Origin: an uncultured Methanomicrobiales archaeon
GTDB taxonomy: Archaea; Halobacteriota; Methanomicrobia; Methanomicrobiales; Methanospirillaceae
Length of the DNA: 64,000 nt
Assembly: GCA_903832665.1 (NCBI GenBank)
Contig: CAILCG010000024.1
Span: 62,001-126,000, forward strand
Reading direction: 5' to 3'
Shown here in pieces: positions 15,214 through 40,288 of the stretch (position 1 is the first letter of the stretch; the number at the start of each line of letters is the position of its first letter). The notes beneath the pieces were generated by a model that was given only the letters and a program-made list of their open reading frames with translations, was not told the DNA's origin and searched no databases. The position numbers were made by a program, and so were the translations under genes.

Positions 15214-16127
15214 ACGCTATAGAAGCCAGTCACCTGATCAAACGGTTCGGGTCCGTCACTGCCGTAAACGATGTCAGTCTCACCGTTTGCGAGGGAGAGA
15301 TCTTCGGGTTTCTCGGCCCGAACGGAACCGGGAAAACAACCACGATGCGCCAGCTCACCGGTGTTCTCACCCCGGACTCCGGAGCCGTCCGGATCAATGG
15401 CATCGATATCCATCGCCATCCGCTTGAAGCCAAGATGCAGATGGGCGTCATCCCGGAGAACAGCACGGTCTACGGTGATCTGTCCGCAGAGCAGAACCTC
15501 AGCCTGAGCGGGCAGATGTATGGCATGCCCCGGGCAGACCGGGACAAGAGAATTGACGAGTTTTTCTCAAGAATGGGCCTTTCTGAAAAGAGAAAACTCC
15601 CGGTCCGGGGTTTCTCGAAAGGCATGAAGCAGCGGGTGAGTATTGCGTGTGCCATCATTCACCGCCCCCCTCTCCTGCTCCTTGACGAGCCTACGAGCGG
15701 TCTTGATGTGCAGAGCCGCAGGCTCGTGATCGATACCATCCGCGACATGAACGAACAGGGCAGCACAATCTTCCTCACCACGCACAACATCGAGGAGGCC
15801 AACACTCTCTGCCAGACGGTCTGCATCCTCAACAAGGGGAAGATCGTTGCGCAGGACAGCCCCGAACGATTAAAGAAGATGTTCAATACCACGCAATCGG
15901 TCGAGGTCTCGTTCGACCGGCCCGTAACCCGGGACCTGTTTGCCGCGGAGGGAATTCTGCGGGCGGAGTCCTGCGGCGACAAGTGGAAGATCTTCACGGA
16001 CAATCCCGACCAGGTACTGAAATATCTTGTCGGGCGTGCCGAACGAGAGTCCATCACCATTACCTCGCTCACGACCTCCGGCCCGAGTCTTGAAGAAGCG
16101 TTCGTCCGGATCACGGAGTGTGCCTGA
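15210..16127 (+). CDS. ABC-2 type exporter, ATP-binding protein
   Basis: This 305-residue ATPase has Walker A GPNGTGKTTT near residue 37, the signature segment RGFSKGMKQRVSIA near 135, Walker B LLLLDEPTSGLD near 155 and the H-loop TTHN. A C-terminal region of about 90 residues follows, as in NatA/drug-exporter ATPases. The first glycine of the usual LSGGQ motif differs (FSKGM), which is common in this subfamily. Its stop shares one base with the permease start, making an operon with the small Cys-rich protein. Confidence 0.95.
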   Translation: MNAIEASHLIKRFGSVTAVNDVSLTVCEGEIFGFLGPNGTGKTTTMRQLTGVLTPDSGAVRINGIDIHRHPLEAKMQMGVIPENSTVYGDLSAEQNLSLSGQMYGMPRADRDKRIDEFFSRMGLSEKRKLPVRGFSKGMKQRVSIACAIIHRPPLLLLDEPTSGLDVQSRRLVIDTIRDMNEQGSTIFLTTHNIEEANTLCQTVCILNKGKIVAQDSPERLKKMFNTTQSVEVSFDRPVTRDLFAAEGILRAESCGDKWKIFTDNPDQVLKYLVGRAERESITITSLTTSGPSLEEAFVRITECA

Positions 16128-16873
16128 TGGAGATCCCGCTGGCCCTCAGGGGTATCATCGTGATCACGCGCAAGAACATGAGGCTGTATTACACAAAACC
16201 GCCGGTCCTGATGTTCGGGTTGCTGTTCCCGCTCTTCATGTTCTTTGCATTCTTCGTCGGACGCAAGCTCGACCTCGTCACGTTCTTCCCGGCATTTCTC
16301 GCAATGATGCTCTTTTTTACCGCATCGTCTGTCGGACCGCTGATTACCCCGTGGGAGAAACGGGAGAAGACCTACGAACGACTCCTGTCGTACCCGGTGA
16401 CCCAGGACAGCATCATTCTCGGCGACGTCGTGGCGGGAGCAGTTTTCGGCATTGGCATTTCCCTGCTGGTATGGATAGCAAGCCTGTTTTTCATCCCGGT
16501 TGCGATCACCAGCATCGGGCTGTTCGCTCTCGCCTTCATCCTCGGGACCCTCTCCTGTGCAGCGCTCGGTGCCCTGCTCGCCTCCCCGGCATCCGACAGT
16601 CCGCCCAATGTCATAATCTTCTCGAACCTGATCCGGTTCCCCCTCATCTTCATCTCCGGAATCTTCGTGCCGCTGACACAGATGCAGGGGCCGGGGCTTG
16701 CTCTCGCCTTCTGTTCGCCGCTCACGTATCTCGTGGACCTCTTCAATGCGGCAATGTCCGGGACATCGGTGTTTTCTCCGGCAGTCGACTGCTGCATGCT
16801 TGCCGGGATTTCGGTAGTGTTTATTCTCGCGGCCCGGCTCATCCAGACCAGAAATCTGGTGAAGGGGTTGTAA
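16127..16873 (+). CDS. ABC-2 type exporter, permease
   Basis: This 248-residue membrane protein has about six hydrophobic segments and the ABC-2 pattern, including FTASSVGPLITPWEKREKTY near residue 65 and FPLIFISGIFVPL near 170. ATG 16127 shares an A with the ATPase TGA. It should form the transmembrane half of an exporter. The substrate is unknown; neighbours and the HxlR regulator suggest a xenobiotic or lipid. A 31-base piece of this gene (16308-16338) recurs inverted at 30742-30772. Confidence 0.9.
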   Translation: MEIPLALRGIIVITRKNMRLYYTKPPVLMFGLLFPLFMFFAFFVGRKLDLVTFFPAFLAMMLFFTASSVGPLITPWEKREKTYERLLSYPVTQDSIILGDVVAGAVFGIGISLLVWIASLFFIPVAITSIGLFALAFILGTLSCAALGALLASPASDSPPNVIIFSNLIRFPLIFISGIFVPLTQMQGPGLALAFCSPLTYLVDLFNAAMSGTSVFSPAVDCCMLAGISVVFILAARLIQTRNLVKGL

Positions 16874-16898: not shown

Positions 16899-17162
16899 TC
16901 CGTTGGAGACGCCCCTCTTGGGAGACCAGAGGCCCTGTTAGGAAACGAGGTACAACGGAGCCCGTAACGGCGCCGGTTGTACCTCTTTTCCCAAACATGC
17001 CAATATCCGAGGTCATAATTCGCAAAAACGCGGAATGGGACCCGGAACGGGCAGAGGTTTGTCGACGGGAATGGCTGAGGTCATATTTAGCCACGTTACT
17101 ATGGCAAAAGTCAGGGCAGGATGATGTTTATGAGGTCGGGGGTTCTGGCGGGAGGCCGGATT
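16899..17162. repeat. 264-bp dispersed element, copy 3
   Basis: This copy starts 26 bases after the exporter permease stop. It keeps the GGTACAAC/GTTGTACC inverted pair and the CGCAAAAACGCGG and GGTCATATTTAGCC blocks, but differs from the other two in about the middle 40 bases. Its right end continues into a truncated SDR. Confidence 0.85.
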
Positions 17163-24452: not shown

Positions 24453-26414
24453 ATGAGATCCCCGGTTTTCATATTACTGCTGGTGGCAGTATGCTGCCTT
24501 TGCACTATTGTGCCTGCATCTGCTGCTCAGGAGCTGCGGAACAATGCCACCGACTTCACGGTTGCCGCCAACCTGAACGCGAACAATACTCCCGCATGGA
24601 ACAACAACGAGGACGTTGACTTTGCAGGCCGGGGACTTATCGCAACCTACGACCCCCTGATCATCCCGGCCGAGATCCCGAATATTACCGCATGGAACGC
24701 GGAGGCATTCCGGCGTTTCGAGAACGGTTCGAGTTCGGCTACCATCAACCCGCTCCTGTACCGGCAGGCGCAGCTGAACAATGTCCACGGCCTTTTCCTG
24801 GTCAGTCCGGGGATCTACCAGGTCAGGGGCTTCGATATCTCGTCAATGACGCTGGTCAGGGGCGACACCGGCTGGATCGTCATCGATCCCCTCTCCTCGG
24901 TTGAGCCCGCCCGGGCTGCCATGGCACTGGTCAACCGTAGCCTTGGCTCTTATCCGGTAAAAGCCGTTATTTACTCTCACCCCCATGCCGATCATTACCA
25001 GGGTGTGAAGGGAGTGACCACGAGCGATGCGGTTAACGCCGGCAGGGTAACGATCATTGCTCCCGAACACTTCATGGAGTATGCCATCAGCGAGAACGTG
25101 TATGCGGGCAACGCAATGCAGCGGCGGGCCATGTACCAGTTCGGCCTCTTGCTCCCACGGGATGAGAAGGGACTGGTCGACAACGGGATCGGCAAGACCA
25201 TCTCAACCGGTACGGCCTCCCTGATCCCTCCCACCCTGGAGATTACCCGTACCGGGCAGGAAGTTACGATCGACGGTGTCCGCATGGAGTTCCAGGTAGC
25301 GGAGGATACCGAGGCCCCGGTTGAGATGAATATCTGGTTCCCGCAGCACAATGCCCTGTTCGTTGCGGAGAACTGTGCAGGAACACTCCACAACATTCTG
25401 ACGCCAAGGGGAGCCCAGGTACGGGATCCGCTCGCCTGGTCGGCAAGCCTGGACGAGACCCGCCGGCTGTACGGGGAGAAGGCGGAGGTCATGTTCTCCT
25501 CCCACAACTGGCCCCGGTTCGGGAATGACCGGGTCATTGAGATCCTTGAGAATGAGCGGGACATGTACAAGTACATCAATGACCAGACCCTGAACCTTGC
25601 CAACAAGGGCTATACCATGGACGAGATCGCTGACATGATCGAACTTCCCCCGTCGCTGAAGCAGCACTGGTACACCCATGGCTTCTATGGCCAGGTCTCC
25701 ATGGGAGTAAAAGCAACGTACCAGCGGTATCTCGGATTCTATGACGGGAATCCGGTCAACTTAAAGCGGCTTACTCCCGTGGCCTATGCAAAGAGCATGA
25801 CCGAATACATGGGGGGAAAAGATGCCGTGATGCAGCGTCTCTCTCAGGACTATGCTGCCGGGAATTACGAACTCGTTGCCTCGATTGCGAATTATCTGGT
25901 GTTTGCCGATCCCACGGACAGAGAAGCAAGGAAGATAGAAGCCGATGCCCTCGAGCAGCTCGGGTACCAGGAAGAGTCGGACCCTGCGAGGAACGCGTAC
26001 CTGACCGCAGCATCAGAACTCCGGGGTACCCTGCCGGTCAGGGGCCGGAACACGATATCCGGCGACATCATGTCCGCGATGACGACCGGCCAGATTCTCG
26101 ACTACCTGTCCGTGAGGGTCAATGCAACGAAAGCTGATGGCGACAATTACCGCATCAATCTTAGGATTACCGATACCGGAGACACAGCGCTCGTCCAGGT
26201 GAAGAACAGCGTGATCCTATACCGGATGAATGAATCTTCACCGGCAGCTGACGCATCGGTTGAGATGCCAAGGAAAACGCTCCAAACGCTGGCCCTCAAC
26301 CCTGCAGTCAACCCGTCAGGGGTGATTGTGACCTCAGGAGATCCTGCTGTATTTAAGAAATTTGCCGGGATGTTCGATACGTTCGATCCCGACTTTCATA
26401 TAACAATCCCGTAG
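24453..26414 (+). CDS. Secreted SdsA1-like alkylsulfatase
   Basis: This 653-residue protein has a signal peptide (residues 1-24, ending ASAA). A metallo-beta-lactamase domain follows with the zinc-binding SHPHADHYQG (His176, His178, Asp180, His181) and EAPVEMNIWFPQHNALFVAE. A helical dimerisation region and a C-terminal SCP2-like domain (about residues 540-653) complete the class III linear alkylsulfatase arrangement. Such enzymes cut alkyl sulfates such as SDS to alcohol and sulfate. The family is mainly bacterial, so lateral acquisition is likely. A sulfonate-type importer lies elsewhere in the window, but no direct link is seen. Confidence 0.92.
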   Translation: MRSPVFILLLVAVCCLCTIVPASAAQELRNNATDFTVAANLNANNTPAWNNNEDVDFAGRGLIATYDPLIIPAEIPNITAWNAEAFRRFENGSSSATINPLLYRQAQLNNVHGLFLVSPGIYQVRGFDISSMTLVRGDTGWIVIDPLSSVEPARAAMALVNRSLGSYPVKAVIYSHPHADHYQGVKGVTTSDAVNAGRVTIIAPEHFMEYAISENVYAGNAMQRRAMYQFGLLLPRDEKGLVDNGIGKTISTGTASLIPPTLEITRTGQEVTIDGVRMEFQVAEDTEAPVEMNIWFPQHNALFVAENCAGTLHNILTPRGAQVRDPLAWSASLDETRRLYGEKAEVMFSSHNWPRFGNDRVIEILENERDMYKYINDQTLNLANKGYTMDEIADMIELPPSLKQHWYTHGFYGQVSMGVKATYQRYLGFYDGNPVNLKRLTPVAYAKSMTEYMGGKDAVMQRLSQDYAAGNYELVASIANYLVFADPTDREARKIEADALEQLGYQEESDPARNAYLTAASELRGTLPVRGRNTISGDIMSAMTTGQILDYLSVRVNATKADGDNYRINLRITDTGDTALVQVKNSVILYRMNESSPAADASVEMPRKTLQTLALNPAVNPSGVIVTSGDPAVFKKFAGMFDTFDPDFHITIP

Positions 26415-26468: not shown

Positions 26469-26718
26469 GATGCAGGCACGGACGACTGCGTGCACGATCT
26501 GATGCTGTTCCGGCTGCTATCCGGACTCATTTGTCGGCTCACCCGTTGATCCAACTTCAGACTTCAATTACGATAATTGAACTCCGGAACTGGTATGATT
26601 AAAAAGCTGGACCTGGCACTTCTCTCAATTTTCCTCCATGAATCCCTGATTACCTTGCCAACCTTCGATCAACAGGGAGATCGAAGAACCGGAATAACCG
26701 TAACAACTTTGGCAGGAT

Positions 26719-27675
26719 CTACACCTCCTCCTCCATCACCATTCCAGCCAGCCTTCTCGCTTCGGCAGCCCTCTCCCCGACAACCGGATCATGCTCCGCA
26801 AACACCGGATTGATCTGGTCCCGAATACTATACTGTGGAGAACCGTCGTCACGCATCGAACACCACACGGACAGCCGGTACAGGCACAACTCCCTTGCCC
26901 GGGTCTTCCGGATCAATAACGAGAGGCGCCGGGTCACAAGCTTATCCGTTACCATGACCGTATCTTCGCAAACCTTTGATAGGAGCCGGATATTCTCCTT
27001 CATCCATTCGGATGTAAGCGCCTTCTGGCTCATTGCGGCAATGTAATCGAACGTGAGATACTCCGTTCCCCGGTATCTTTCGGGAGATCCGACAACCTGG
27101 ATCTCGAGGAGCATGAACTCTTCGCCTTGCAGCAGCCCCTGGCGGGCCTCCTCCTCCGTCTGATCTTTGATTGCCGGCGGGTAGTTCGTCTTTTCCAGGA
27201 TCTCGAACATCTCCTCCGACACCCGTCTCTCTTCTTTCCTGCCTCCCGACAGTGCCTGTTCGATCTGCTGCCGGCATGCCAGCGCCCGTGCGGCAACCCC
27301 GGCATCAAGTTCTGCAAACGCCGGATCGATCCGGTCGGTAACCCGGGTTTCGTGCGAACCATCGGCCGTGACTCGCACGGTAACAATGAGCCGGTACAGC
27401 ACCCGGTCGTTCCCGCCATCCTTCTCAACGAGCGTGAGCAGCCGGAGCCGGGCAGGGTCGTCCATGTTCATCACGGTTTCCCGGCAGAGCCCGGCCAGTC
27501 TTGCGTTGGTGTCTTTGGTTCCTTCCGGAGCCCCGTCTGCACCAGAAGGCGGGGTGAACTCCAGCGCAATGCCGGGATCCCCGCGAAGTCTCGCGAACTT
27601 CACGTGGACCTCGACTCCGCCGAGTACAATCTCATGGCTGTCCGGATTTTCTCTTGCATCGTCACGTTCCGTCAT
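26719..27675 (-). CDS. Two-domain internally duplicated protein of unknown function
   Basis: The protein of 318 residues is a tandem duplication. Copy one (about residues 20-145) has CRETVMNMDDPARLRLLTLV, then YRLIVTVR, DRIDPAFAELDAGVA and ACRQQIEQAL. Copy two (about 190-318) has CEDTVMVTDKLVTRRLSLLI, then YRLSVWCS, DQINPVFAEHDPVVG and EARRLAGMVM. No membrane segment or known motif is seen. It lies 45 bases downstream of the CGGCPHGTDC protein on the same strand, so the two are probably cotranscribed. The function is unknown. Confidence 0.75.
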   Translation of the reverse strand: MTERDDARENPDSHEIVLGGVEVHVKFARLRGDPGIALEFTPPSGADGAPEGTKDTNARLAGLCRETVMNMDDPARLRLLTLVEKDGGNDRVLYRLIVTVRVTADGSHETRVTDRIDPAFAELDAGVAARALACRQQIEQALSGGRKEERRVSEEMFEILEKTNYPPAIKDQTEEEARQGLLQGEEFMLLEIQVVGSPERYRGTEYLTFDYIAAMSQKALTSEWMKENIRLLSKVCEDTVMVTDKLVTRRLSLLIRKTRARELCLYRLSVWCSMRDDGSPQYSIRDQINPVFAEHDPVVGERAAEARRLAGMVMEEEV

Positions 27676-27720
27676 ACTGGATCTGCCTCCTTACCCTGTA
27701 CTTTCCTGCTGCGTTCATAC

Positions 27721-28848
27721 TCACCGGTTCCGACAGAATCGGCCACCTCGTATCTCCGGCCGGGATTGTTCGGATCGCCCCCTGGGAACACCATTCCGGC
27801 TACCCCCCGGAACAGCCTCCAGCCCATCTTTTCGGATGTCTGCCACCGGATTGTTGCTAAACAGGGTCATTTCAAGGCACAGAAATGATGCAAAATCGTG
27901 AATCAGGGTTTGAAATGACCGTTTTGTAAAATCAGTGTGTGGTTTTTCATCGTAAGATTGCCGGTCAGCCCCAATGAGGGAGTAATTGGGGGCTGAAATG
28001 GTCTCTGTTGACCTCATATCAGGCAACCCCCCATCTTGTTCTCCCCGGACCGGCCTCTCCGGCTCCGCTCTTTCTTCCAGTGCAGCTCCCCCTGTTTTCC
28101 TGGTCACCGCTTTTTTCCCGGCATTCTTGTTCGCACCTGCGACCGGCTTTTCTGTTCCGGTACTATTTTCCGGATCGACCGGGCCGGCCGGTACCTGATT
28201 TTTAATCACCGGTTTTTTACCGGGAGCATGTTTTGATTTTGTTTTCGGTATGCCGGCATCCAGGATCTTTTTGAGTTCATTGCTTCCCATCGCATCCGTT
28301 CCTGTGCCCGCCTTCTTTGCAGCATTCTTTTTCGCGAGCCAGCGGAGGATCGGGTCGCGGGGTGCAGCGGTACCGGGAGATGCCGGACTGGTCGCATTCG
28401 TTTCGTACGGCATCACGGTGCTGTCCCCACGGGGTGGTGGGCCGGTCACTACCGGTTTCATCAGGTTCAGCGGCATCCCGTAACGATCGATCTCCACGAG
28501 CCCGTCATCCCCGATACGGAAATGGCGCAGGGTACCGTACCGGGAGTACAGCCAGAGTTCGCAGGAGACCGGGCCATTGCGGGGAACAAGGCGGAGACCG
28601 GCGATAACTTCGGCAAACTCCCTTTCGATGGAGGCAATCCCGGCGGAGAGCTTCCGGGCAAGCCGGACCCGGACGATGACGAACAGGCCATTGCCGCTCA
28701 GGAGGAACTCGCCCAGGTTCAGGAGCGACGGGATGAAGACCATCACATGACCCCTCCAGAGTGCAAACGGGATCGCAAGAGCGATTCCCCGGGCCACGTT
28801 CGGTCCCGGCTTCATGCAATCCGTCCCGTGCGGGCACCCTCCGCACAT
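27721..28848 (-). CDS. CGGCPHGTDC-motif protein with disordered linker
   Basis: The 375-residue protein begins MCGGCPHGTDC, a tight three-Cys cluster. Residues 20-125 match the 760-1131 protein, with ELWLYSRYGT and LVEIDRYGMPL. A low-complexity region rich in Lys, Ala, Pro and Gly (about 150-290) follows. The tail (KRSFQTLIHDFASFLCLEMT onward) may be a short folded domain; the last 40 residues look non-native. It could be a membrane-associated or nucleic-acid-binding protein, since residues 25-60 are hydrophobic. The function is unknown. Confidence 0.65.
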   Translation of the reverse strand: MCGGCPHGTDCMKPGPNVARGIALAIPFALWRGHVMVFIPSLLNLGEFLLSGNGLFVIVRVRLARKLSAGIASIEREFAEVIAGLRLVPRNGPVSCELWLYSRYGTLRHFRIGDDGLVEIDRYGMPLNLMKPVVTGPPPRGDSTVMPYETNATSPASPGTAAPRDPILRWLAKKNAAKKAGTGTDAMGSNELKKILDAGIPKTKSKHAPGKKPVIKNQVPAGPVDPENSTGTEKPVAGANKNAGKKAVTRKTGGAALEERAEPERPVRGEQDGGLPDMRSTETISAPNYSLIGADRQSYDEKPHTDFTKRSFQTLIHDFASFLCLEMTLFSNNPVADIRKDGLEAVPGGSRNGVPRGRSEQSRPEIRGGRFCRNR

Positions 28849-29639
28849 CTCAGGTATTCTGAGGGCCAGGAATTTTCGTTGCCTGCAGTATGTCTGCTTT
28901 TCTTCAGGTGTGACATGGTTTTGTTCCCAATTTTCTGTTCCATAATCCCCTTGTTATCCGGTGGGAATTCCCGGCCCGTTCACCGGGGCCAGCCCGGGCA
29001 GACGGTCCCCTATCAGGGATACCTGCCTGAACGATCCCGCAGAGCTCATAAAAGAGCTTCCGGACCGGCGTTCATAGACGCGAGACCGCGATAATTCAGG
29101 GGGCCGGCACTCTCTTCTGGAGTTTGCCCGCCCGCAGTCGCGGCCTACGATAACCATTCCCACGATGACGGGGCGGTACTGCATGTACCGGATCACTGCT
29201 GCACCGAAACGCCACCTCATGGAACCGGGGCCGTGCAGTCTGACCCGTTTACCCGGGAGTGCACGGGGCCCGTCGTCCAGGCCGGCGCAGGTGTGCAGCG
29301 TTCCTGCGGCATTGTGATTATCCTCTGTTTTTTATAATTGATTAATAGGTTATTGGTTGCTGCGGATTTTTTCGCAGTTATTCTGGCCGGTATGCGGGAA
29401 TCGGGGGCTGGATTGGTGGTGGATGGGTATAACCCGGAGGTTGTATGAATGGAGCGCCGCTGTGGGAATTGGTGAAGAGTGCATTAATGGATTGGATTTT
29501 AGAAGAGGTTAGCTGCGTTCGATAGAATCCGGTTATTAATTCCAGCAATACCTGGAGAAATCCACGTTTGTGTTCTCGATTTATCCCGTACTAAAAAAAG
29601 CATTTCCCTCATGGAAATGAGTTATGAATGCCCTCCCGG
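28849..29639. other. Gap without a supported gene
   Basis: An open minus-strand frame at 28954-29220 is Arg-rich and resembles antisense of GC-rich DNA. From about 29320 the sequence turns AT-rich (TTTTTTATAATTGATTAATA at 29329). No repeat from the first 24 kb is present. Nothing else is supported. Confidence 0.4.
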
Positions 29640-29987
29640 TTATTCGATCGTTTCCATCCGGACTGCGGGTTCAAGGATCGTGATGAGCCGGGGGATGTCC
29701 AGGCTCACAGTATCCCAGACCTCGTCAAGGTCAACTTTTCCATAGGAATGAATGAGCATGTCCCGCATACGTGCCATTGCAGACCATTCGATCGATGTGA
29801 ACCGGTCGAGAGTCTCCGGGGAGAGCCGTTTTGAGACCTCACCGATCACTTCAAGGCAGCGGATGACCGCATACTGGCACTGGCGATCGGCTGCGAAAGA
29901 TTCCCGGGAATGATCCCGGGTAAATTCCCGTGCGTCCTTTGCCATGAGGAGAATATCAAGCAGGTACGCATCATCGTCACGCACCAT
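29640..29987 (-). CDS. HepT-type HEPN RNase toxin
   Basis: This intact HepT has 115 residues, with YAVIRCLEVIGEVSKRLSPE and WSAMARMRDMLIHSYGKVD. The RX4H catalytic motif is RDMLIH, with the following Tyr (SY) that is the AMPylation target in this family. It overlaps the upstream nucleotidyltransferase by 11 bases. Unlike the copy at 2784-3132, all expected residues are present. Confidence 0.92.
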   Translation of the reverse strand: MVRDDDAYLLDILLMAKDAREFTRDHSRESFAADRQCQYAVIRCLEVIGEVSKRLSPETLDRFTSIEWSAMARMRDMLIHSYGKVDLDEVWDTVSLDIPRLITILEPAVRMETIE

Positions 29988-30288
29988 ACACTTTCTCCAT
30001 GGATGAGAGGATACTTCTTTTGCGGATATAGTTCCGGCTCTGTTCCACAGCCTGCCGTGTCATGAGATCAATGCGACGGCCGAATAGCTCTTCGAGCTCC
30101 GCTTCCATCTTTGCGAGCTGGATGAGGGTGTGACGTGAACCGGCCGGGAAATCCACGATGATATCGATGTCGCTGTCGGGCCGGAATCTTCTGGTGGTGA
30201 CTGAACCAAATACCTGGAGTTCACTGATATTCCATGCCTTGCAGAACTCCCCGATCTGTTTTTGCCGGCTCCGGATAAGTGCGTTCAT
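29977..30288 (-). CDS. MNT-type nucleotidyltransferase antitoxin
   Basis: This 103-residue protein has VFGSVTTRRFRPDSDIDIIV, the GSX10DXD catalytic motif, and a third acidic position in FGRRIDLMTRQAV. It should AMPylate HepT. It is the first gene of the pair, starting at ATG 30288. The module sits at the left edge of the AT-rich island. Confidence 0.92.
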   Translation of the reverse strand: MNALIRSRQKQIGEFCKAWNISELQVFGSVTTRRFRPDSDIDIIVDFPAGSRHTLIQLAKMEAELEELFGRRIDLMTRQAVEQSRNYIRKRSILSSMEKVYGA

Positions 30289-30490
30289 AGTACCTGTTCT
30301 TCTTAATTATTGTACAGTGATTACCCTTCTTAACCATTTTCCTGTCGGCTTCCGGTAGAGGTTTTCTTCTATGTGAAAAAAACTTTAGATAAAAATGACG
30401 TTAATCTGATGAGGGGTATGTTTCCCAAATATTACGTCTCATTCAGATTGCTATATTTTCCGTTTGCGTTGATGCCGGATATTCAGGATG

Positions 30491-30550
30491 CCGAATGAGT
30501 GGATTGACGATGTTCTTTAATTCATTCCTGAAGTTGATCCACTCATTCGG
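30491..30550. repeat. 14-bp perfect inverted repeat with GU extension
   Basis: CCGAATGAGTGGAT at 30491-30504 and ATCCACTCATTCGG at 30537-30550 are perfect inverted copies around 32 bases. Inner pairs extend with G-U pairing to about 18. It is the only strong palindrome at the left of the helicase/methylase genes. It could be a terminator-like hairpin, an RNA element or an attachment remnant. Confidence 0.6.
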
Positions 30551-30741
30551 ATCATTCAGATCGCGTGAGAGGCTGACTGCATAAAAAGAGAACGAATTTC
30601 TTCATCTGTCGTTTGTCTTTCATTCGATTTGATCGATGGATTATCCATTGAGGCACGGATCACCGCTGGGTAAATCACAGGATCTCGAACCAGCGCTCCG
30701 GTGCCACGCCGTACGATGCCAGCACAACAACCAGTCCTGCT

Positions 30742-30772
30742 GGTCCGACAGACGATGCGGTAAAAAAGAGCA
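30742..30772 (-). pseudogene. 31-bp inverted fragment of the ABC-2 permease
   Basis: On the minus strand this equals 16308-16338 exactly, coding for MLFFTASSVGP in both. Homology to the helicase begins just after, at about 30771. The identity ends sharply on both sides. Confidence 0.6.
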
Positions 30773-31766
30773 TAGAGTAGATCGTATCGGGAATACTAAT
30801 AGAATTACGGTTTATAATTTCTTCCCCGATGAGGATAGTGAGAGTCTCCTCAAACTCCTTGAGAAATTGCAGAATAAAATAAAGGATATTGCCACGATTG
30901 TCGGAAAGGAAAATGGCATTCTCAGCGGGGATGAAGAAGTAGATGCCAAAACCATTGGTGAGCGAATCAAGGAAATCCGGAGATTTGATGATACTATTAA
31001 ACTCGAAGACGAGGCAAAAAATCCGATTTTCAATATCACCGGTGAAGACAAAGAGGCAGTTATCCGGTTTAAATTAAGAAACCAGATCCGTGACTGGAAA
31101 CTTACGAAAAATGACTTCAGGGAATATTCGAACGTTCCTTACTCTGTTGTCAGAAATGGTAAGACCGGTATTTTCTCTCTCTATCGAATTTTTGATAAAA
31201 AAGATGGGCATAAATTCCAAGATGTCCTGCTTCGGTTTGATCCAATGAATAACTCGGTTTCTGAGATGAATCCGTTGGATCTCTCTATTCAACCGGCGGA
31301 TCCCGGTATAGCAAAAGCTGGTGTTGATCGTTCTGTTGATCTTGAAACCGGTCTGGAACAGATTCAATCGTCTTTTGAGGACAAATTCGCAACACTCAAA
31401 GGAGGATACTCCGATCTTGAGATGTATCCGAATTTCAAGATGTATAAAATCCAGGAAAAAATTGTACACCGGTTATCTACTCTCCAGAAACAAAAGTCGC
31501 TGAATGATGAACTGACTAAATATAAACGAGCGATTTCTGAATTAAAAGGATTATATGCAAATATTTTCTTGAGTCAGACGGATGCTGTTGAATTGGGTAA
31601 ACGCTTTGATGATAAGCCGGTCATGGCTATTGAAGTCGAGGAACTCATCAGGATTTTGCGGGAATTCAGGAAAGACGTGATCCAGAAAAATCCTGATTAT
31701 CAGCAATTCCTCAGGACGGAAAGGAATATTGATTATAAACAGATTTGCTGGGGGGCATTTGTATGA
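30773..31766 (+). pseudogene. C-terminal part of an SNF2-family helicase
   Basis: About 330 residues remain. They open at HRVDRIGN, which is the motif VI region of SNF2 helicases, and continue VYNFFPDEDSESLLKLLEKL and a C-terminal region of about 280 residues rich in Lys and Asp. All helicase motifs upstream are gone; the sequence before 30772 is unrelated. An ATG at 30636 would open a chimeric frame of 376 residues with a non-homologous start. The stop overlaps the methylase start as ATGA, keeping operon coupling. It may encode a C-terminal adaptor or simply be a remnant. Confidence 0.75.
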
Positions 31767-34700
31767 TGTCAATAAAACGAGACGATATCGCTTCGATTCG
31801 TAGTCTTGATAATATTGTAGCGATATTCTCGGAGAAAGGATTTACCGAATACAAAAAAGAGAGTGATACCGAAATCCGGATTAAAATTTCAGATGAGCCG
31901 ACATTTCTCTCGGTTTTTCAGATTAATGGGGTGGCTGATGTACCTCGACATCAAAAATATTTGGATGTCAAGACTGAATATCTGATATTGGTTACTCATG
32001 ACTTCGAAAATCTTATTTTTGTGAAAAAAGAATTCACCAAACTGGATACTGAGAGATTCCGGAAATTACGGATAAATAAATCAAAAATCACCAATACGAG
32101 TCTGAACAAGATCAATGGCCTTAATTTCAATGATGTTACCTTGTTCGACAATTTGTTTGATCGCAAGGAAGTTGTCAAGCAGTTCTATGATGAATTCATC
32201 AAATACCGTAAACTGCTTATTGACAATATCTCAGGTTTGGATACAGAAATTGAAAAAGAGCGGTATGCACAAATTCTCGTTGACCGCCTTATTTTCTTAT
32301 ATTTTATCCAGAAAAAGAATTTACTTGATGAAAATGAGAATTATCTCTCTCAAAAACTTAAAGAGAACAGAGGGGATTTTTTTAATAATTTCCTTTGTCT
32401 GCTATTTTTCAAGGGATTGTCTATTAAAGGATTCAAGGATCGCAAATTAGGTGATATTCCCTATCTGAACGGAGGTTTATTCCGGCAGAAAAAATGCGAA
32501 CAGGTAAAAATATCCATCCCGGATGAAGTCTTTGAAACAATACTTATCTTTTTTGACTCGTGGAACTGGTATGTGGATGAGCGGGCGGATTTTGGCGAAG
32601 AGAAAAGTATCAGCCCGGAGATACTTGGTCATATCTTTGAAAAGACTGTCAACCAGAAGGAAAGTGGAGCATATTATACTCCCGAACTTATCACGTCCTA
32701 TATCTCTGAAACCACTATTTATCCCGTATGCCTCAATAAAATGAACAGCCGGTTCAAACAAAACTATTCAACAATTAAAGAGCTCTTTGAAAAGGACTCC
32801 CCGGAAGAGATAGCATACCTTTACAACGAAGTCCTGAAAAAATTATCTGTTCTCGATAACGCCTGTGGTTCAGGAGCATTTTTGATCGCTGCTCAGGATG
32901 TCCTGATCGATATCTATTTCCAGACTATTTTCAGGTTGAAAAGTGATCCTGTCTTCATTGAAGAAATCAAGGAACATAACCGGAACCATGAACTTAAACT
33001 CGATCTGAACCTGGCATCAGCACAGGAATTCCACGACAATTCTCGGTGGAGTTATTACATCAAGAGGATGATTATCACCAATAATCTCTACGGTGTGGAC
33101 ATCGAAGAAGGAGCCGGGGAGATCGGGAAGTTACGATTATGGCTATCGATGATAGCTCATGTCCCGGAAAATATTTCTTTAGTCGAGCCTTTACCCAACA
33201 TCGAATATAACATCAGATGCGGTAACAGCCTTATCGGATATACTTCTGCAACCCAGATCGTGGATGAGAAAGATTTACCAAAAAAGCCAAAAAAGAAAAT
33301 CGTCTGGAACAAATTATCCGGCAACCAGATCAGCTTGGATACCTATCAGCCCGATTCGATCTTCCATCTCTATTACGATCGAAACCAGCTCATCCGGCAA
33401 TACAAAGATGCAGATGATTCAAAGAAAGCTGCCGATCTCAAGGATACGATTGATCAAAAAACCTACGAATACAATCAGGTCCTGAATAAGAAATTATTTG
33501 ATGAGATTGTTTTTGAAAAAGGGTTGGAGATTACTGAAGATTCCTTTGTTGATCTTAAACCGTTCCATTGGATTATGGAATTTTCAGATATTTTTGAGTG
33601 GGGGGGATTTGATATTATTGTCGGAAATCCTCCTTATTTACGGATCCAGACACTGAATAAATGTGCCGAAGAAGAAGTTGAATATTATAAAGATCAATAC
33701 CAAGTTGCGAAGAAGGGAAATTATGATATTTACGTAGTGTTTGTTGAAAGAAGCATTGATTTACTAAATAAAAATGGAATTTTAGGCTATATCCTCCCAC
33801 ATAAATTTTTCATTGCGAAGTACGGCGAACCACTTCGAAAATTTATTGCAGGGGGAAAACTCCTAAAAAAGATAGTTCACTTCGGACATCAGCAAGTTTT
33901 CGTTGGTGCAACAACGTATACCTGCCTTTTATTTTTAGGGAAATCTGTAACAGATGAATTTTGTTTTACAAAAATTGATAGTATCAAAATATGGAGTATA
34001 ACGAAGACCGCTGAATCTGCGATTCTAGGGTCTGAAGACATTTCAGAAAAAGAATGGTATTTCGTAATTAGGCCTGATGCAATAGTCTTTAAAAAATTAA
34101 TAGCAATGCCGAACAAACTCGGGAATATCATCAAACTGTTTGTGGGATTACAAACTAGCGCGGATCCAATTTATATTTTAAAGCCCCTGGCGGTAAATCC
34201 CCAATATTCAATAGTGAAATCTAAATTATTTGAAAATGAAGACATTCAAATCGAAACTTCAATTTTGCACCCACTTCTTAAAGGTGCAGAAATCATCAGA
34301 TACGAAAAACCAGGCTACGAAAATGTCTTGATTTTTCCTTATTACATTCAATCAAGTCAAGCCGTTCCTATCAATATTCATGAAATGCAATCGAAATATC
34401 CGTTTGCCGTTACTTATTTAGAAAAAAATAAGGATGCATTGATTGAACGACCAAAAACAAGTGAGAAGAATTGGTGGTTGTTTCCCTATCCTAAGAATTT
34501 GACACTTTTTGAAAGACCTAAAATTTTGTGTCAAGTATTGAGTACCCGGGGAAACTTTACTTTAGATGCAAAGGGTGAATTTTATTTTGTAGGTGGCGGT
34601 ACTGCGGGTGGCTATGCAATATATGATGAGAAAGAGGACGTAGACTATTTAAAATTTTTATTAGGAATATTAAATTCATCTCTGACGACCTTTTTTGTTT

Positions 34701-35020
34701 CAAAGGTTGGATCTGGATTTCAATCTGACTTTTACGCTTTCGGAAAAAGTTCTCTTGAAATTTTCCCCCTGCCAAAAATTAACTTGAAAAATATTGACGA
34801 TAAAAAACGATATTTTGAGATGATTTCTAGTGTTACATCGACGCTCAATTACCATAAACAATTGCAGGAAATTCAATCTGAAAATGAAAAGATCGAATTG
34901 ACCAAAAAAATTATTGAAATTGATAAATCCATAGACAAACTGGTATACGACCTTTATGGGTTGACGGTTGAGGAAATTGCAATCATAGAGGATGGACTCA
35001 GCCGAAAAGGAAAATGTTGA
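31763..35020 (+). CDS. Eco57I-type DNA adenine methylase / restriction-modification protein
   Basis: This 1085-residue protein starts at ATG 31763, overlapping the helicase stop. The N-terminal 280 residues are a helical/target-binding part. Motif I is DNACGSGAF (residues 365-373) and motif IV is NPPY (622-625), which identifies an N6-adenine methylase of the Eco57I/BREX PglX-like type. The C-terminal part (about 780-1085) resembles a target-recognition domain, with STRGNFTLDAKGEFYFVGGG. No PD-(D/E)XK nuclease motif is obvious. A host methylase without its own nuclease fits a defence system in which partners cut or degrade. Base composition is AT-rich. Confidence 0.92.
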   Translation: MMSIKRDDIASIRSLDNIVAIFSEKGFTEYKKESDTEIRIKISDEPTFLSVFQINGVADVPRHQKYLDVKTEYLILVTHDFENLIFVKKEFTKLDTERFRKLRINKSKITNTSLNKINGLNFNDVTLFDNLFDRKEVVKQFYDEFIKYRKLLIDNISGLDTEIEKERYAQILVDRLIFLYFIQKKNLLDENENYLSQKLKENRGDFFNNFLCLLFFKGLSIKGFKDRKLGDIPYLNGGLFRQKKCEQVKISIPDEVFETILIFFDSWNWYVDERADFGEEKSISPEILGHIFEKTVNQKESGAYYTPELITSYISETTIYPVCLNKMNSRFKQNYSTIKELFEKDSPEEIAYLYNEVLKKLSVLDNACGSGAFLIAAQDVLIDIYFQTIFRLKSDPVFIEEIKEHNRNHELKLDLNLASAQEFHDNSRWSYYIKRMIITNNLYGVDIEEGAGEIGKLRLWLSMIAHVPENISLVEPLPNIEYNIRCGNSLIGYTSATQIVDEKDLPKKPKKKIVWNKLSGNQISLDTYQPDSIFHLYYDRNQLIRQYKDADDSKKAADLKDTIDQKTYEYNQVLNKKLFDEIVFEKGLEITEDSFVDLKPFHWIMEFSDIFEWGGFDIIVGNPPYLRIQTLNKCAEEEVEYYKDQYQVAKKGNYDIYVVFVERSIDLLNKNGILGYILPHKFFIAKYGEPLRKFIAGGKLLKKIVHFGHQQVFVGATTYTCLLFLGKSVTDEFCFTKIDSIKIWSITKTAESAILGSEDISEKEWYFVIRPDAIVFKKLIAMPNKLGNIIKLFVGLQTSADPIYILKPLAVNPQYSIVKSKLFENEDIQIETSILHPLLKGAEIIRYEKPGYENVLIFPYYIQSSQAVPINIHEMQSKYPFAVTYLEKNKDALIERPKTSEKNWWLFPYPKNLTLFERPKILCQVLSTRGNFTLDAKGEFYFVGGGTAGGYAIYDEKEDVDYLKFLLGILNSSLTTFFVSKVGSGFQSDFYAFGKSSLEIFPLPKINLKNIDDKKRYFEMISSVTSTLNYHKQLQEIQSENEKIELTKKIIEIDKSIDKLVYDLYGLTVEEIAIIEDGLSRKGKC

Positions 35021-35033
35021 CGGTGAGTGAAAA

Positions 35034-35279
35034 ATGGCAAAAGGCAAAAAAATTTCAGCAAAGATAAAAGAACCCGAAAAACCCGTCTCTTTTAAAGATA
35101 TGAATTCCATGGCTCGGGAAGAATTTATCCGGTTAATATCAGCAGACGCTCTTCTGACTCCCGCATGGAAAGACGCAATAACTCCTCTGGTTTCGGAAAA
35201 AATCCCTGATGACCTTTCTCCCTTACAAATACTGATCGATGGTGTGCCTCATGTTGAGACTGAAACAACTCAAGGTTAA
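35034..35279 (+). CDS. Small acidic/basic partner protein
   Basis: This 81-residue protein starts at ATG 35034 behind GGTGAG, 13 bases after the methylase stop. It has a Lys-rich N-terminus (MAKGKKISAKIKEPEKP) and an acidic, helical remainder (EEFIRLISADALLTPAWKDA). Its last codons overlap the ATPase start by about 30 bases, so it is part of the operon. No domain is recognised. It could be a scaffold or antitoxin-like partner of the ATPase-HEPN protein. Confidence 0.7.
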   Translation: MAKGKKISAKIKEPEKPVSFKDMNSMAREEFIRLISADALLTPAWKDAITPLVSEKIPDDLSPLQILIDGVPHVETETTQG

Positions 35280-37647
35280 AAATTGTCGTGGAATCAGGGA
35301 CGGCCCAGATATCAATTTTGAAGCCGGAGGGCTGCTGTTATGTGGAGACAACGGCACGGGAAAAAGTTCGTATATTGATGCCATCGAGAAAAATCTCACC
35401 GGAAAGTGTTCATCCATCGAAACGGGAATACAGGGAATCTCATGGAATAAACACGGTGCCCATATCAAATGTAAGGATGAACCTGAAATTGAACTTACCC
35501 TCACCGATGGGAATAAAGAATTTATCATAGACAATGAAATGGAGCTGCAGAAATTTCCTAATAATATGATCACTTTTTTGGATTCTGCAAGGGTGCATCC
35601 GTTCATTTTACGGCGGAAAACTTTGCTCGATTTCATTGATGCAAAACCCGTAGATCGATACAAAGCCATTGAGGGCTTTTTGAAATTAGATCAGTTCAAG
35701 GAATTTGAAACGAAATTAAAAGAATTGGGAAACGATTGCCAGGAAAAATATTCTGGTGCCGTGACAAAGAAAGACGAAAACATACGGGCCCTTCGTTTAC
35801 GATTAAATTTATCCCCCCAATCTCCCGTCGATGTTGAAACCTGCATAAAACAGGCAAATCAGTTATTAAAACAGGTTGGCATATCCCCCCTAAAAACCCT
35901 TGAGGATATCCCCGAACGGTTGAAAAAAATTGAAGATAGTATTGCTCCCTTGAACCGGGATGAAAGTCTCCAGAAATGGACGAATCTCCTAACAACTCTT
36001 CAGGAAATTCAGAAGAATGATGTAGTTACCGAAGCAGGTCAGAATTATTCTGATAGCCGTCAGGAACTTTTAAAGAAACAAGATGTAATCAAAGGGCATT
36101 TCTACGCGGAGATTCTTGAAAAGGGCCTTGCATGGATACAGGAGGATGCATTAGATCGTTGTCCGCTCTGTAATAATACCATTAATGCTGATGAGGTATC
36201 TCGTTATGTTCAACAAAAAATTTCAGAAAACAACGAAATTACTGCTCTGACTAAAGATCAGAATCAACGATGGAAAACATTTTTGTCCATCCTTACAAAA
36301 AATCGGGATGTTCTCATAAAAATCAAAACACAGTCATTTGAGGGGCTGGAGTCGGAACTACTTGAAAAACTGGATCTCCTCATCAATTCCTACAACAATA
36401 TTTCCCAAAATCATCAGGAACTAACCGAACCAGCACTTATTATCAGCGATATAGCGGCGCTCAATCAAATCAAAACAGATGAAATTCTGCAGGAATTCAA
36501 TGAGAAAATCACAATAATCTGCAGCCAGTTTTCAGATAATGAACGGTATCGTCATCTTTTCAATACAAAAACTGCTTTGGATGCACTCGCGTTACATATG
36601 AAAAATATCGAGAGATGTGATGTGGAAATACAGCATTTTGAAAATTCATTCGGGCAGATGCAGGTCCTTGTAAAATATGCTGAACAAGCACGAAAAACTG
36701 CGGTTCAAAGTCTAATGGTTACCATCACCGACATCGCTGACTCATATTTCCAAAAAATACATCCCGCTGAGACTATAGGAAAACCTCAGTTGACTATTAC
36801 AGACCGCGGGGCCGGGAGTGTCATATTAACGAGCACCTTTTATGGTAAAGTGGAGGATCCCCGTGGCCATTACAGCGAAGGTCACATCGATACCCTCGGC
36901 CTCTGTCTGTTCCTTGCCATCTGCCGGGCACATCATCAGCAGGTTCCGGAATTTTCACTGTTAATTCTCGATGATGTGTTACACAGTGTTGATGGTAATC
37001 ACCGGAGAAGAACGGCAGAACTGATTTTTCAGGAATTCGGAGATCACCAGATAATAATCACTACCCATGATCGGTTGTGGTTTGAGATTTTGAAGACGGT
37101 CTCACGTTCTAACGGAGGCAATAAAAAATTCAGAGAATACCAGATTGCTGATTGGACCCTCGAAGAAGGCCCGATTTTTGGTGATCATTTATCCGAATAT
37201 GATTGGTTAATCTCTGCCGAAGGATTGAAGTCCCAGCCAGCTGATCGTGTCATTAAATCCGGGCGATTACTCGAAGAAATACTCCAGAATTTATGCGATT
37301 CTTTAACGATCAGTGTGCCCTTTAAGATTCGAGGGGATTATACTATCGATCCTCTCTGGTCTTCTTTTTACCAGAAAGCAAAAAAGCAAAATGAGTTTTA
37401 TGTAAAGGGAAAAAAATGTCTTGATTCTATCGACAGCTTACGTCAGATACGAAACTGGGTGGGGGCTCATTATAATGAATGGGCTAAAACACTGACAGCG
37501 AATGAATCAAAAGAATTTGCTAAATCTGTGATTGATCTTAGAAATTTTGTGTATTGTGAAAAGTGTAATCAATTCATCGTTCGGATCCCTCAACTTGACG
37601 GAATATGGTCGTGTAAGGGAGAACATTTACACTATAAAAAAGATTAG
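35251..37647 (+). CDS. SMC/Rad50-like ATPase with C-terminal HEPN RNase domain
   Basis: The 798-residue protein starts at ATG 35251 (MLRLKQLKVKNCRGI); ATG 35239 is also possible. Walker A GDNGTGKSS (residues 32-40), a coiled coil with a Rad50-like zinc-hook CPLC (304-307), the signature EGHIDTLGL near 547, Walker B LLILDD (570-575) and an H-loop TTHD follow. Residues about 640-765 look like a HEPN domain: RLLEEILQNLCDSL, then RNWVGAH (Arg734 to His740), matching RN-x4-H. A zinc pair CEKC (769-772) follows near the C-terminus. The likely role is sensing DNA and firing an RNase; this is an inference. Confidence 0.85.
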   Translation: MLRLKQLKVKNCRGIRDGPDINFEAGGLLLCGDNGTGKSSYIDAIEKNLTGKCSSIETGIQGISWNKHGAHIKCKDEPEIELTLTDGNKEFIIDNEMELQKFPNNMITFLDSARVHPFILRRKTLLDFIDAKPVDRYKAIEGFLKLDQFKEFETKLKELGNDCQEKYSGAVTKKDENIRALRLRLNLSPQSPVDVETCIKQANQLLKQVGISPLKTLEDIPERLKKIEDSIAPLNRDESLQKWTNLLTTLQEIQKNDVVTEAGQNYSDSRQELLKKQDVIKGHFYAEILEKGLAWIQEDALDRCPLCNNTINADEVSRYVQQKISENNEITALTKDQNQRWKTFLSILTKNRDVLIKIKTQSFEGLESELLEKLDLLINSYNNISQNHQELTEPALIISDIAALNQIKTDEILQEFNEKITIICSQFSDNERYRHLFNTKTALDALALHMKNIERCDVEIQHFENSFGQMQVLVKYAEQARKTAVQSLMVTITDIADSYFQKIHPAETIGKPQLTITDRGAGSVILTSTFYGKVEDPRGHYSEGHIDTLGLCLFLAICRAHHQQVPEFSLLILDDVLHSVDGNHRRRTAELIFQEFGDHQIIITTHDRLWFEILKTVSRSNGGNKKFREYQIADWTLEEGPIFGDHLSEYDWLISAEGLKSQPADRVIKSGRLLEEILQNLCDSLTISVPFKIRGDYTIDPLWSSFYQKAKKQNEFYVKGKKCLDSIDSLRQIRNWVGAHYNEWAKTLTANESKEFAKSVIDLRNFVYCEKCNQFIVRIPQLDGIWSCKGEHLHYKKD

Positions 37648-37654
37648 TATTCAC

Positions 37655-38701
37655 TCAATTTATTTGAATATCAGGTGCATTCAAACAAGAATCAATTTCT
37701 TTTTGTATTTTTGCTTTATCTGGGATATTTGCGTTCATGATTAATCTTCGTCCATCAATTCTGATTTCAAATAAATTCGGATTTAAGCCTTTATTATCGA
37801 TTTTATTTGGGCGTTGCCATTCCTGCAAGGAATCCGATAATTTTAGTAAAAATGCAAGCGGTGCTTTTTTCCGATCGATTCGTTTACCGTATGGTAAATA
37901 TTTCGGGCTTATATCATGAATATAGATCGCCGCACATGCAGGTATGATATCTTCTTCGAAATATTTCTGATTACAGTCAATATTCGTATATGGTTCGAGT
38001 ATTTTTTCAAATTTTCGTTCTGGATTATACTTCTGGTAAAAAAGATCAATACTGTTTAAACCGGTTAATGCGCTCATTGCTCTGTGACGTATTGATCCAG
38101 TTTCAATCATTTCTTCGTATTCGGATTGTATGGGGATATCAAGATCCCATCCATCCAAGCATTTCTGAATAAGTGGAAGCGATTTTTTGCTATTGCAAAG
38201 ATTTTCAATACCGGTCGGACGAATCTGGAAATGAAAGACAGGGGAGATATTTTTTATGTGCTTATCACGAATGCAGTTGTTCCTGTCTGAATATTTTTTT
38301 AACATTTCCTGGGCGATTTTCACTGGATAACCAATATCATGGAATAAACATGCAATCTTCCAAGTGAATGGCCTTATTTCAACTCCTTGTGGTAAAAGGA
38401 AAGATTCGCTAAGATATACCCCTAAAATATATGTCTGTAATGTATGCAATACGTGATCTCTGGATTCGATATCGATATTTCCGAGAACCGGTTCAAGCTT
38501 AGACAAATCATACAGATGATCTGCAATTTGGCTCTTCCCATGTTCAGCAAGGATATTTTTAATTATGTGAAGACCATCGTTCAGTCTGTACTCATAATTA
38601 TTATTGTAATCCAAGAATTTTTTGATTCGGGTTTCCTCATCCAGTCCATAATCCTGCAAATTGTCATGAATTTCCTGTAGAATAAACGAATTTATATCCA
38701 T
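37655..38701 (-). CDS. HD-domain phosphohydrolase
   Basis: This 348-residue protein has SRDHVLHTLQTYILGVY (first His), FTWKIACLFHDIGYPV (HD pair), AAIYIHDISPKY and AFLLKLSDSLQEWQRP (last Asp), the HD metal-binding order. A RBS GAGGAG lies before ATG 38701. HD proteins hydrolyse nucleotides or cyclic nucleotides. It faces the methylase/ATPase operon tail-to-tail with an 8-base gap. Its base composition matches the island. A defence role such as nucleotide depletion is a guess. Confidence 0.85.
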   Translation of the reverse strand: MDINSFILQEIHDNLQDYGLDEETRIKKFLDYNNNYEYRLNDGLHIIKNILAEHGKSQIADHLYDLSKLEPVLGNIDIESRDHVLHTLQTYILGVYLSESFLLPQGVEIRPFTWKIACLFHDIGYPVKIAQEMLKKYSDRNNCIRDKHIKNISPVFHFQIRPTGIENLCNSKKSLPLIQKCLDGWDLDIPIQSEYEEMIETGSIRHRAMSALTGLNSIDLFYQKYNPERKFEKILEPYTNIDCNQKYFEEDIIPACAAIYIHDISPKYLPYGKRIDRKKAPLAFLLKLSDSLQEWQRPNKIDNKGLNPNLFEIRIDGRRLIMNANIPDKAKIQKEIDSCLNAPDIQIN

Positions 38702-38760
38702 GATATCTCCTCATCGCAAGCAACACTTTTCTCTCTCATAACTCTCAATGCTATTGAGCC

Positions 38761-38973
38761 TTATAATGCTCGAGTAACCTTTGGTTTTTCCTGCATCGCA
38801 AAAGTCAAGTCATCAAGGAGATCTGTGACTTCATCATATCCCCATACATATTGTCGCTGATAATCAGGGACACGGAACCCCAACTTTGTGAAAATATCTT
38901 TGACAACAATATTCTCACTTTTTATTTCTCCATGGGATATAATTGTAATATTCGTAAATTGATTTGGTGAGGT
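38761..38973 (-). pseudogene. N-terminal remnant of a DUF262/GmrSD-type protein
   Basis: The frame reads IVVKDIFTKLGFRVPDYQRQ, then YVWGYDEVTDLLDDLTFAMQ, and ends in a TAA at 38761. RVPDYQRxYVW with a following LLDDL is the DUF262 (GmrS) N-terminal signature, as in modification-dependent type IV restriction enzymes. There is no start codon and the remaining several hundred residues are missing. Confidence 0.75.
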
Positions 38974-38998
38974 TTAGACCTATCGTTTCAAAAATTAG

Positions 38999-39256
38999 AA
39001 ACAATTATGCCCGAACCCTCCCCCCATTCAATATCGTGTAGTCTATCGCGGCCTCCCCGAACAAACCGCACAACAACTCCTCAAAGACAACGTGTTTTCC
39101 AACAAGGGATTCACCGACACGACCGTCAATCCCTGGAATGCCTGCCAGCCTCTGGATGAGGAACGGCATGACACGTATCACAACCTCATGGCAATCAGTC
39201 TCCCGAAGGAGCAAGAGCTAGCGGAAGAATTGTTCATGTGGATTACCGGGAATTAA
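38999..39256 (+). pseudogene. ADP-ribosyltransferase domain remnant
   Basis: This 85-codon frame without a start reads IQYRVVYRGLPEQTAQQLLK, then NVFSNKGFTDTTVNPWNACQ. VYRG (the R-site), the segment around F-x-x-KGF-T-D-T (related to the STS motif) and downstream Glu residues fit a C-terminal ART domain of the exoenzyme type. It ends at TAA 39256. It may have been carried by a mobile element or toxin gene. Confidence 0.55.
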
Positions 39257-39550
39257 AAAAGATATAGGTAGGTTCGGGATAATCAGAATTCATCACTTTG
39301 AATTGTTCTATTCCAAAATAATTGCATGAGATTTATATTACAGAGCACAACGAAATCATCCGCTCTGTTTCGCCATTATCTGGTTTGGCGTTGCGTTTGA
39401 ACGATCGTTACCGGTCGGATAGTGCGAGCGAAGGTGAGCATAGGGACAATAGGAAAACGAAGCCCTGTGCCAGGAACCTCTGAACAAAAACGCACGATCC
39501 CAAAAAACCGGAATTGCACAAAAAAATTGCTGAAAAAAAATAAAAAAATA
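39257..39550. other. Gap between the island and rpl10e
   Basis: Sequence turns from AT-rich to GC-richer near 39360. No gene or SDR is seen. The right boundary of the island therefore lies here, next to the rpl10e terminator. Confidence 0.5.
39516..39550 (-). terminator. T-rich terminator of rpl10e
   Basis: On the minus strand several T-runs, up to eight T, lie immediately after the stop codon. This is the usual archaeal intrinsic terminator form. Confidence 0.6.
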
Positions 39551-40288
39551 TTACTTCTTGCCGCCCTTTGCAGGGGCTGCCTTGGCGTCCTTGCCGCCTT
39601 TTGCCGGTGCTGTTCCCTTTGCGGGCTCAGCTGCTTTGGCGTCCTTGCCGCCTTTTGCGTGGATTGCGCCGCTACCCTTGACTGCTTCCTTTGCGGGCTC
39701 AGCTGCTGCTTCTTCAGCAACTACCGGTGCTGCAACAACTTTCTCACCAACAAGCTTCGGTGCTGCAATGATCTTGCCGCTGACCTTGAGTTCGCTGACC
39801 TTCAGGTGGATGGGAGTCGGGAGCTTGTATCCCGCGTGGTGGAGTGCATCCTTGATCTTCTCAAGATAATTGGGAGTAGAGTAGACCGTCAGGACTTTCT
39901 GGCCTGCGCTGACGCGGGCTGCAGTCCCGACTGCTTTTCCAAAGGCAAGACGCATGCCTTCAGAGACACGGTCCGCACCGGCACCGGTAGCCTGCTTGTT
40001 TTCGCGAAGCACGTGGTGGGGAAAGACCCTGACCTTGAAGTGGAAGTTTGACCTGCCGACTTCCTTCATCAGGCGCCGGTTGGTCGTGATACGGGCTGCC
40101 TCGAGTGCGCTGTGCCGGATCTGGCATGACTCGTCAACAATGAGGTCAACTTCGGTTGGGAATTCCTGCGAGAGGTTTCCCATCTCGAACTGAACAATCT
40201 TGCTACCCGGAACACCGCCCATATATTTACGCCGTGTATAGGCCTTCTTGGAAATGTTCCTGTACATCTTTGCCGGTTTTCTAACCAT
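39551..40288 (-). CDS. rpl10e: Ribosomal protein L16/L10e with long C-terminal tail
   Basis: This 245-residue protein starts [20 protein letters not shown] and keeps the L10e pattern to about residue 172 (VSELKVSG); family members are about 165-175 residues. A 70-residue tail follows, rich in Ala, Lys and Gly, with two [13 protein letters not shown]-type repeats and a KKGGK end. The core binds 23S rRNA near the A site and peptidyl-transferase centre. The tail is unusual and probably disordered; a role in solvent or rRNA contacts is only a guess. It has its own leader after the ABC operon, with AGGAGT before the start. Confidence 0.95.

Follow-up and report, generated by a model that had tools for sequence, protein, structure and literature searches.

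How did a helicase gene in this archaeal genome come to start abruptly, in the middle of a conserved motif, next to an inverted fragment of an unrelated permease gene? We address this question in a window of 64,000 nucleotides (the whole stretch of DNA analysed here), whose first base corresponds to position 62001 of contig C24. The preliminary description had reported a 31-bp permease match (16308-16338) and explained the short helicase by a recombination scar between the two genes. The inverted exact match is real, since 30742-30773 on the plus strand is the reverse complement of 16307-16338, but it is 32 bp long and is bounded by mismatches on both sides. A simple count (64000² / 4^32) puts the chance expectation for a match of this length at about 1e-10. 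Similarly, the helicase homology does start sharply, but not with the H of the proposed HRVDRIGN: this residue is encoded by a CAT that belongs to the permease copy, and the homology begins at codon 30774 (AGA GTA GAT CGT ATC GGG, RVDRIG). Ahead of the permease piece, another 165 bases are likewise copied exactly from C24, from places outside the window. A scar of the recombination type is retained, whereas a plain permease-helicase junction is only partly right: the permease piece is only the last of four pieces in a filler of 197 bp.

The filler and its donors

The filler (30577-30773) consists wholly of four exact copies of 85, 31, 54 and 32 bp, and all 197 of its 197 bases could be rebuilt by joining the donors with 0, 3 and 2 bp of overlap (Table 1). 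As the window starts at C24:62001, the donors of pieces 1-3 lie outside of it. All four donor ORFs are intact and belong to C24 as well, at distances of 14-70 kb leftwards of the filler; the TPP-binding enzyme that donated piece 3 is presumably the beta chain of pyruvate:ferredoxin oxidoreductase. The intact permease ORF implies that its sequence was copied and not moved. The sense of the donor genes in the filler is mixed, with pieces 1 and 4 on the minus and pieces 2 and 3 on the plus strand. Along the filler, the five joins correspond to jumps of about 57, 6.2, 6.0, 55 and 14 kb. The second is direct and the other four are inverted, and two of the five span less than 10 kb. Two random sites would share 0 bp in 57% of cases, at least 2 bp in 16% and at least 3 bp in 5%; the overlaps at the switches thus exceed chance only mildly.

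Table 1. Features of the locus and of the host genome (window positions unless a contig is named)
Feature	Position	Strand	Remarks
13-kb island	26480..39485		approximate extent, between the alkylsulfatase gene and L10e
HepT-like and nucleotidyltransferase (MntA-like) pair	29640..30288	-	left of the filler
Left flank of the filler	30343..30576		no match elsewhere in the genome; contains the hairpin
Filler piece 1	30577..30661	-	85-bp exact copy of C24:35034-35118, inverted; in a HUMPS/RraA-like fusion gene
Filler piece 2	30662..30692	-	31-bp exact copy of C24:28843-28873, inverted; in cobS; 0-bp overlap with piece 1
Filler piece 3	30690..30743	+	54-bp exact copy of C24:22772-22825, direct; in a TPP-enzyme gene; 3-bp overlap with piece 2
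Filler piece 4	30742..30773	-	32-bp exact copy of C24:78307-78338, inverted; 2-bp overlap with piece 3
Donor of piece 4	16307..16338	+	inside the 251-aa ABC-2 permease ORF 16118-16873 (C24:78118-78873)
Chimeric 376-aa ORF	30636..31766	+	predicted; the filler provides ATG and 46 codons in frame with the helicase remnant
HKD-SNF2 helicase C-terminal remnant, 330 aa	30774..31766	+	starts within motif VI, between QRVG and RVDRIG
Type IIG-like / DrmMI-like DNA methyltransferase ORF	31745..35020	+	intact; found with the helicase in other genomes
SMC/RecF-like ATPase ORF	35239..37647	+	intact, same island
ORF with weak HD-domain match (below the Pfam cut-off)	37655..38701	-	right part of the island
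Archaeal NHEJ operon: Prim-Pol, Ku, ligase-phosphoesterase	C7:29758-33041 (L111 5759-9042)	-	genes side by side

When the filler region was compared with the whole assembly (2.88 Mb, 28 contigs, 98.8% complete), four exact matches were obtained besides the region itself, all of them on C24. To look for further filler to the left of 30577, we compared 30290-30600 with the same assembly; apart from itself and piece 1, no hit had an E value below 0.78. The probability that four random donors all fall in a given 140-kb stretch is about 6e-6; this figure treats the donors as independent, and the stretch was chosen post hoc.

A CRISPR-spacer-like origin was considered for the two pieces of 31-32 bp and was rejected, as there are no repeats between the pieces. 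Rfam gave no matches on the window. To the left of the filler there is a hairpin, a 14-bp perfect inverted repeat in which 30490-30503 pairs with 30537-30550 around a 33-base loop. It ends 26 bases before the filler, and its single-stranded fold is better than those of 196 of 200 shuffles. The hairpin could be a mark of the break, a fold-back product or a native element.

The helicase remnant and its chromosomal setting

The preliminary description had regarded the helicase as truncated at a sharp edge, and both points are borne out: about 860 N-terminal residues, some two thirds of the protein, are missing, and the edge is exact to the base, with homology from the first base after the filler. 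PADLOC assigned the fragment to HKD+Snf2 over profile positions 724-840 of 948 only. The PLD (HKD) domain and all helicase motifs before motif VI, as the motifs of SF2 helicases are named, are missing, and the gene is therefore a remnant. With everything before motif VI gone, a working motor would not be expected from the chimeric frame.

Homologues of the fragment are found in 30 of 392 genomes of the phylum, the own genome included. Of 14 loci examined, eight were informative, and in all eight QRVG, with which motif VI opens, stands before the homologous stretch. Around six matches, full helicase ORFs of 1184-1270 aa were recovered; QRVG followed by the R-D/N-R-I-G stretch is present in 6/6, and a methyltransferase gene adjoins the full helicase in each of them. 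It had also been considered that the permease segment might stand upstream of intact helicases in relatives. This was not the case in the loci compared, for none of 20 helicase-homologue loci has a 15-mer in common with the filler; six of these comprised the full gene with several kb upstream, and 14 the match with 1.5 kb on each side, six of the 14 coming from the same genomes as the full-gene loci.

The missing part was also sought with the 840 N-terminal residues of the closest homologue. In the own genome the best E value was 0.199, with none at 0.001, and the same query was positive in six of six control genomes at 4.6e-60 or better. The absence favours a real loss, and a gap in the 98.8%-complete assembly is possible. 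Among 199 close genomes, the only match to the helicase fragment is the own one, which leaves no ancestral allele for comparison, so that microhomologies at the outer ends of the filler are not measurable. At the protein level, 21 candidate stretches were obtained in genome_contigs, of which none was confirmed, and a search of plasmids returned 20 records, all below 60% identity.

The remnant is part of an island located between an alkylsulfatase gene (24453-26414) and the L10e gene (39551-40288), which are convergent neighbours in two relatives (G021 and G038). On the left, similarity to G021 ends at 26479; on the right, similarity to G034 and G007 sets in again at 39486. Within the island, 29640-30342 is conserved in G002. 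Judging from these comparisons, the sequence to either side of the filler lies where it is expected and is syntenic. An alkylsulfatase gene beside L10e was not found in the other stretches fetched around L10e.

Several further observations concern the surroundings of the island. The region 3' of the L10e gene (26480-39485; L061-L068, L070-L072) seems to be a variable site. The C-terminal tail of L10e (39551-39750) is a low-complexity Ala/Lys/Gly tract with internal repeats, and the open frame of the L10e homologue varies in length among relatives. A dispersed repeat family has near-identical copies at 303-407, 6342-6465 and 17009-17132, and at C24:149084-149292 outside the window.

Origin of the filler

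We consider it likely that the filler is the junction of an in vivo deletion in the defence island, sealed from several templates through end joining at microhomologies or template switching, and the scar is probably a product of DNA-break repair. Two DNA ends would have arisen, presumably by a double-strand break, one upstream of the nucleotidyltransferase gene and the other inside motif VI of the helicase, and the DNA between them would have been lost, including about 2.6 kb of the helicase gene. Four ectopic templates at a distance of 14-70 kb may then have served one after another for the extension of one end (by 85, 31, 54 and 32 nt), with template switches at overlaps of 0, 3 and 2 nt, before this end was joined to the helicase end. 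The enzymes might have been supplied by the cell's own Prim-Pol/Ku/ligase NHEJ operon, or by primase and replicative polymerases in an MMBIR-like manner. We lean moderately towards copying as the source of the pieces, ligation or capture of small fragments being the less probable, though still appreciable, option.

The timing of the event can be judged from the relatives. When 30200-31000 was compared with 100 genomes, 49 of them (the own included) matched at E 0.001 or better; among the matches listed, each one from another genome covers a single piece or the flank 30200-30342. Three of the pieces have matches on the same G021 contig, each at a position of its own (2085, 29209 and 35860 of C11). 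The highest identities over full length in other genomes are 80, 97, 91 and 91% for pieces 1-4, and those to the own donors are 100%, which implies copying that is recent and specific to this lineage, or else took place in the test tube. Junction-spanning 20-22-mers occur in only six loci, all of which derive from this single place on C24. The patch was found in none of the relatives searched, and a 50-base junction pattern gave no match in genome_contigs, from which the own record may have been left out.

We also scanned for abutting short exact copies from non-collinear places with 20-bp seeds, dropping co-linear repeat pairs with an offset below 50 bp (C24 and C14) or below 1000 bp (G036). 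In C24 the scan picked up three things, namely the filler chain, a family of intergenic repeats and the low-complexity stretch that ends the L10e gene. The only yield of C14 was a tandem triplet repeat where the contig starts, and that of G036 was a single tandem-repeat region. The named repeat families and low-complexity regions were set aside by eye, as were, with 16-bp seeds, the chained pairs at C24:115931 and C24:204591. No other such chain stood out in the 255,336 bp of C24 or in the stretches scanned of C14 and the relative G036, the first 260 kb of each. The filler is known from one assembly, with no second case in the genome sample scanned, and a solitary junction of this kind is no more than a lead.

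The copying in the test tube that the identities also allow is the main rival. According to this explanation, repeated template switches during whole-genome amplification or library preparation produced an in vitro chimera that the assembler took for the chromosome, and on the real chromosome 30774 would be preceded by the rest of a full helicase. In addition to the complete identity with the donors, the share of inverted joins would fit, as 85% of 475 chimeras formed by multiple displacement amplification (MDA) were inverted, with at least 2 complementary bases at the switch in 76.8% (PMC1855051); the marker content missing from the assembly (1.2%) would also leave room for a lost helicase contig. 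According to that paper, however, inverted chimeras mostly joined sequences less than 10 kb apart and showed no proximity beyond that distance, whereas three of the five joins here span 14-57 kb and all donors nevertheless lie within 70 kb. A run of five switches within 197 bp would also seem long for such a process; the chimeras described in the 454 study join two sequences. Moreover, synteny holds on either side of the filler, no part of the assembly contains the helicase N-terminus, and overlaps of 0-3 bp would require a chimeric read and would presumably not arise from the assembler alone. The filler may share with MDA chimeras the mainly inverted joins and the short complementary stretches, and we regard an artefact as unlikely. 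If it were one, the locus would caution against inferring scars from a single assembly.

The remaining explanations are less probable. A direct exchange between permease and helicase, by inversion or illegitimate recombination that left a 31-bp permease fragment, was suggested by the exact inverted match of 32 bp and the sharp helicase edge. Such an exchange should have broken both partner genes, but the permease is unbroken and the filler holds three further donors, a third gene being copied immediately beyond the 32 bp and two more after it; we therefore consider it very improbable. In short-patch double illegitimate recombination, which is reportedly known from Acinetobacter and is said to involve intragenomic donors and short microhomologies, the cell's own short single-stranded DNA is captured at replication, here as several fragments in a row. 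The donors and the overlaps of the filler would agree with this process, but it explains neither the loss of about 2.6 kb of the helicase nor why all four fragments come from one 70-kb side, and it seems improbable here, even though it is not separable by sequence alone from a deletion with filler. Finally, the location of all four donors within protein-coding genes would be compatible with capture of transcript cDNA at the break. This RNA-templated origin is hardly credible, as the mixed sense orientation argues against one reverse-transcribed chain.

Host end-joining genes and known systems

In eukaryotes, fillers from several templates are a mark of polymerase-driven end joining with template switching. 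The deletion junction proposed here resembles such templated insertions in its copied ectopic pieces, retained donors and coupling to a deletion, and may do so in its short overlaps, which exceed chance only mildly. It differs in being archaeal, in having no known involvement of polymerase theta, in the one-sided position of its templates within 70 kb and in being known from one assembly. We found no report of a natural four-template filler from an archaeon in the literature searched, although one may still exist.

The host has an NHEJ operon on another contig, with the domains PF02735, PF21686, PF01068/PF04679 and PF13298 together. Ku, which a 2021 review called rare in archaea, is patchily distributed among the relatives and is present in 19 of 100, the own genome included; it is lacking in G034, the closest well-assembled relative by L10e, and in the control genome G036. 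This operon holds the gene set (Prim-Pol, Ku, ligase, phosphoesterase) of the archaeo-prokaryotic NHEJ of Methanocella paludicola, whose NHEJ polymerase carries out strand displacement and has been proposed to promote MMEJ (PMC4797286, in the accessible part of the article). Joining with little or no homology would fit the overlaps observed here; long fillers from several templates are, in contrast, unmentioned in that part, and the link between the operon and the junction is circumstantial. Annealing at microhomologies and MMEJ are likewise promoted by archaeal primase (PMC12019639). The operon thus makes an end-joining origin of the filler plausible, which is not proof. Either the Prim-Pol/Ku operon or the primase could be the source of the enzymes; the sequence does not decide between them, and it does not distinguish copying from fragment capture either.

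We tentatively put forward, as a rather doubtful idea, that archaeal end joining by Ku and Prim-Pol can switch templates serially over tens of kb and seal a break with a patchwork of four pieces, the present filler being a recent natural scar in which a defence gene was cut in one event. If this is true, it would represent an archaeal counterpart, in outcome, of theta-mediated end joining or MMBIR. Four identifiable templates and a whole NHEJ set in an archaeon provide a concrete and testable record of how a break may have been mended, and the junction also records how a defence gene may be lost in a single event.

The defence system itself corresponds to HKD+Snf2 helicase with a type IIG-like methyltransferase (PADLOC C3a139), with which the locus shares the C-terminal 330 aa and the adjoining intact methyltransferase; unlike that system, it is without the PLD domain and the motifs before motif VI. 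A second methyltransferase homologue (L048, C19:89033-90502) has diverged to 34% identity and has a TAA inside the match, and is perhaps a decayed copy of a similar system.
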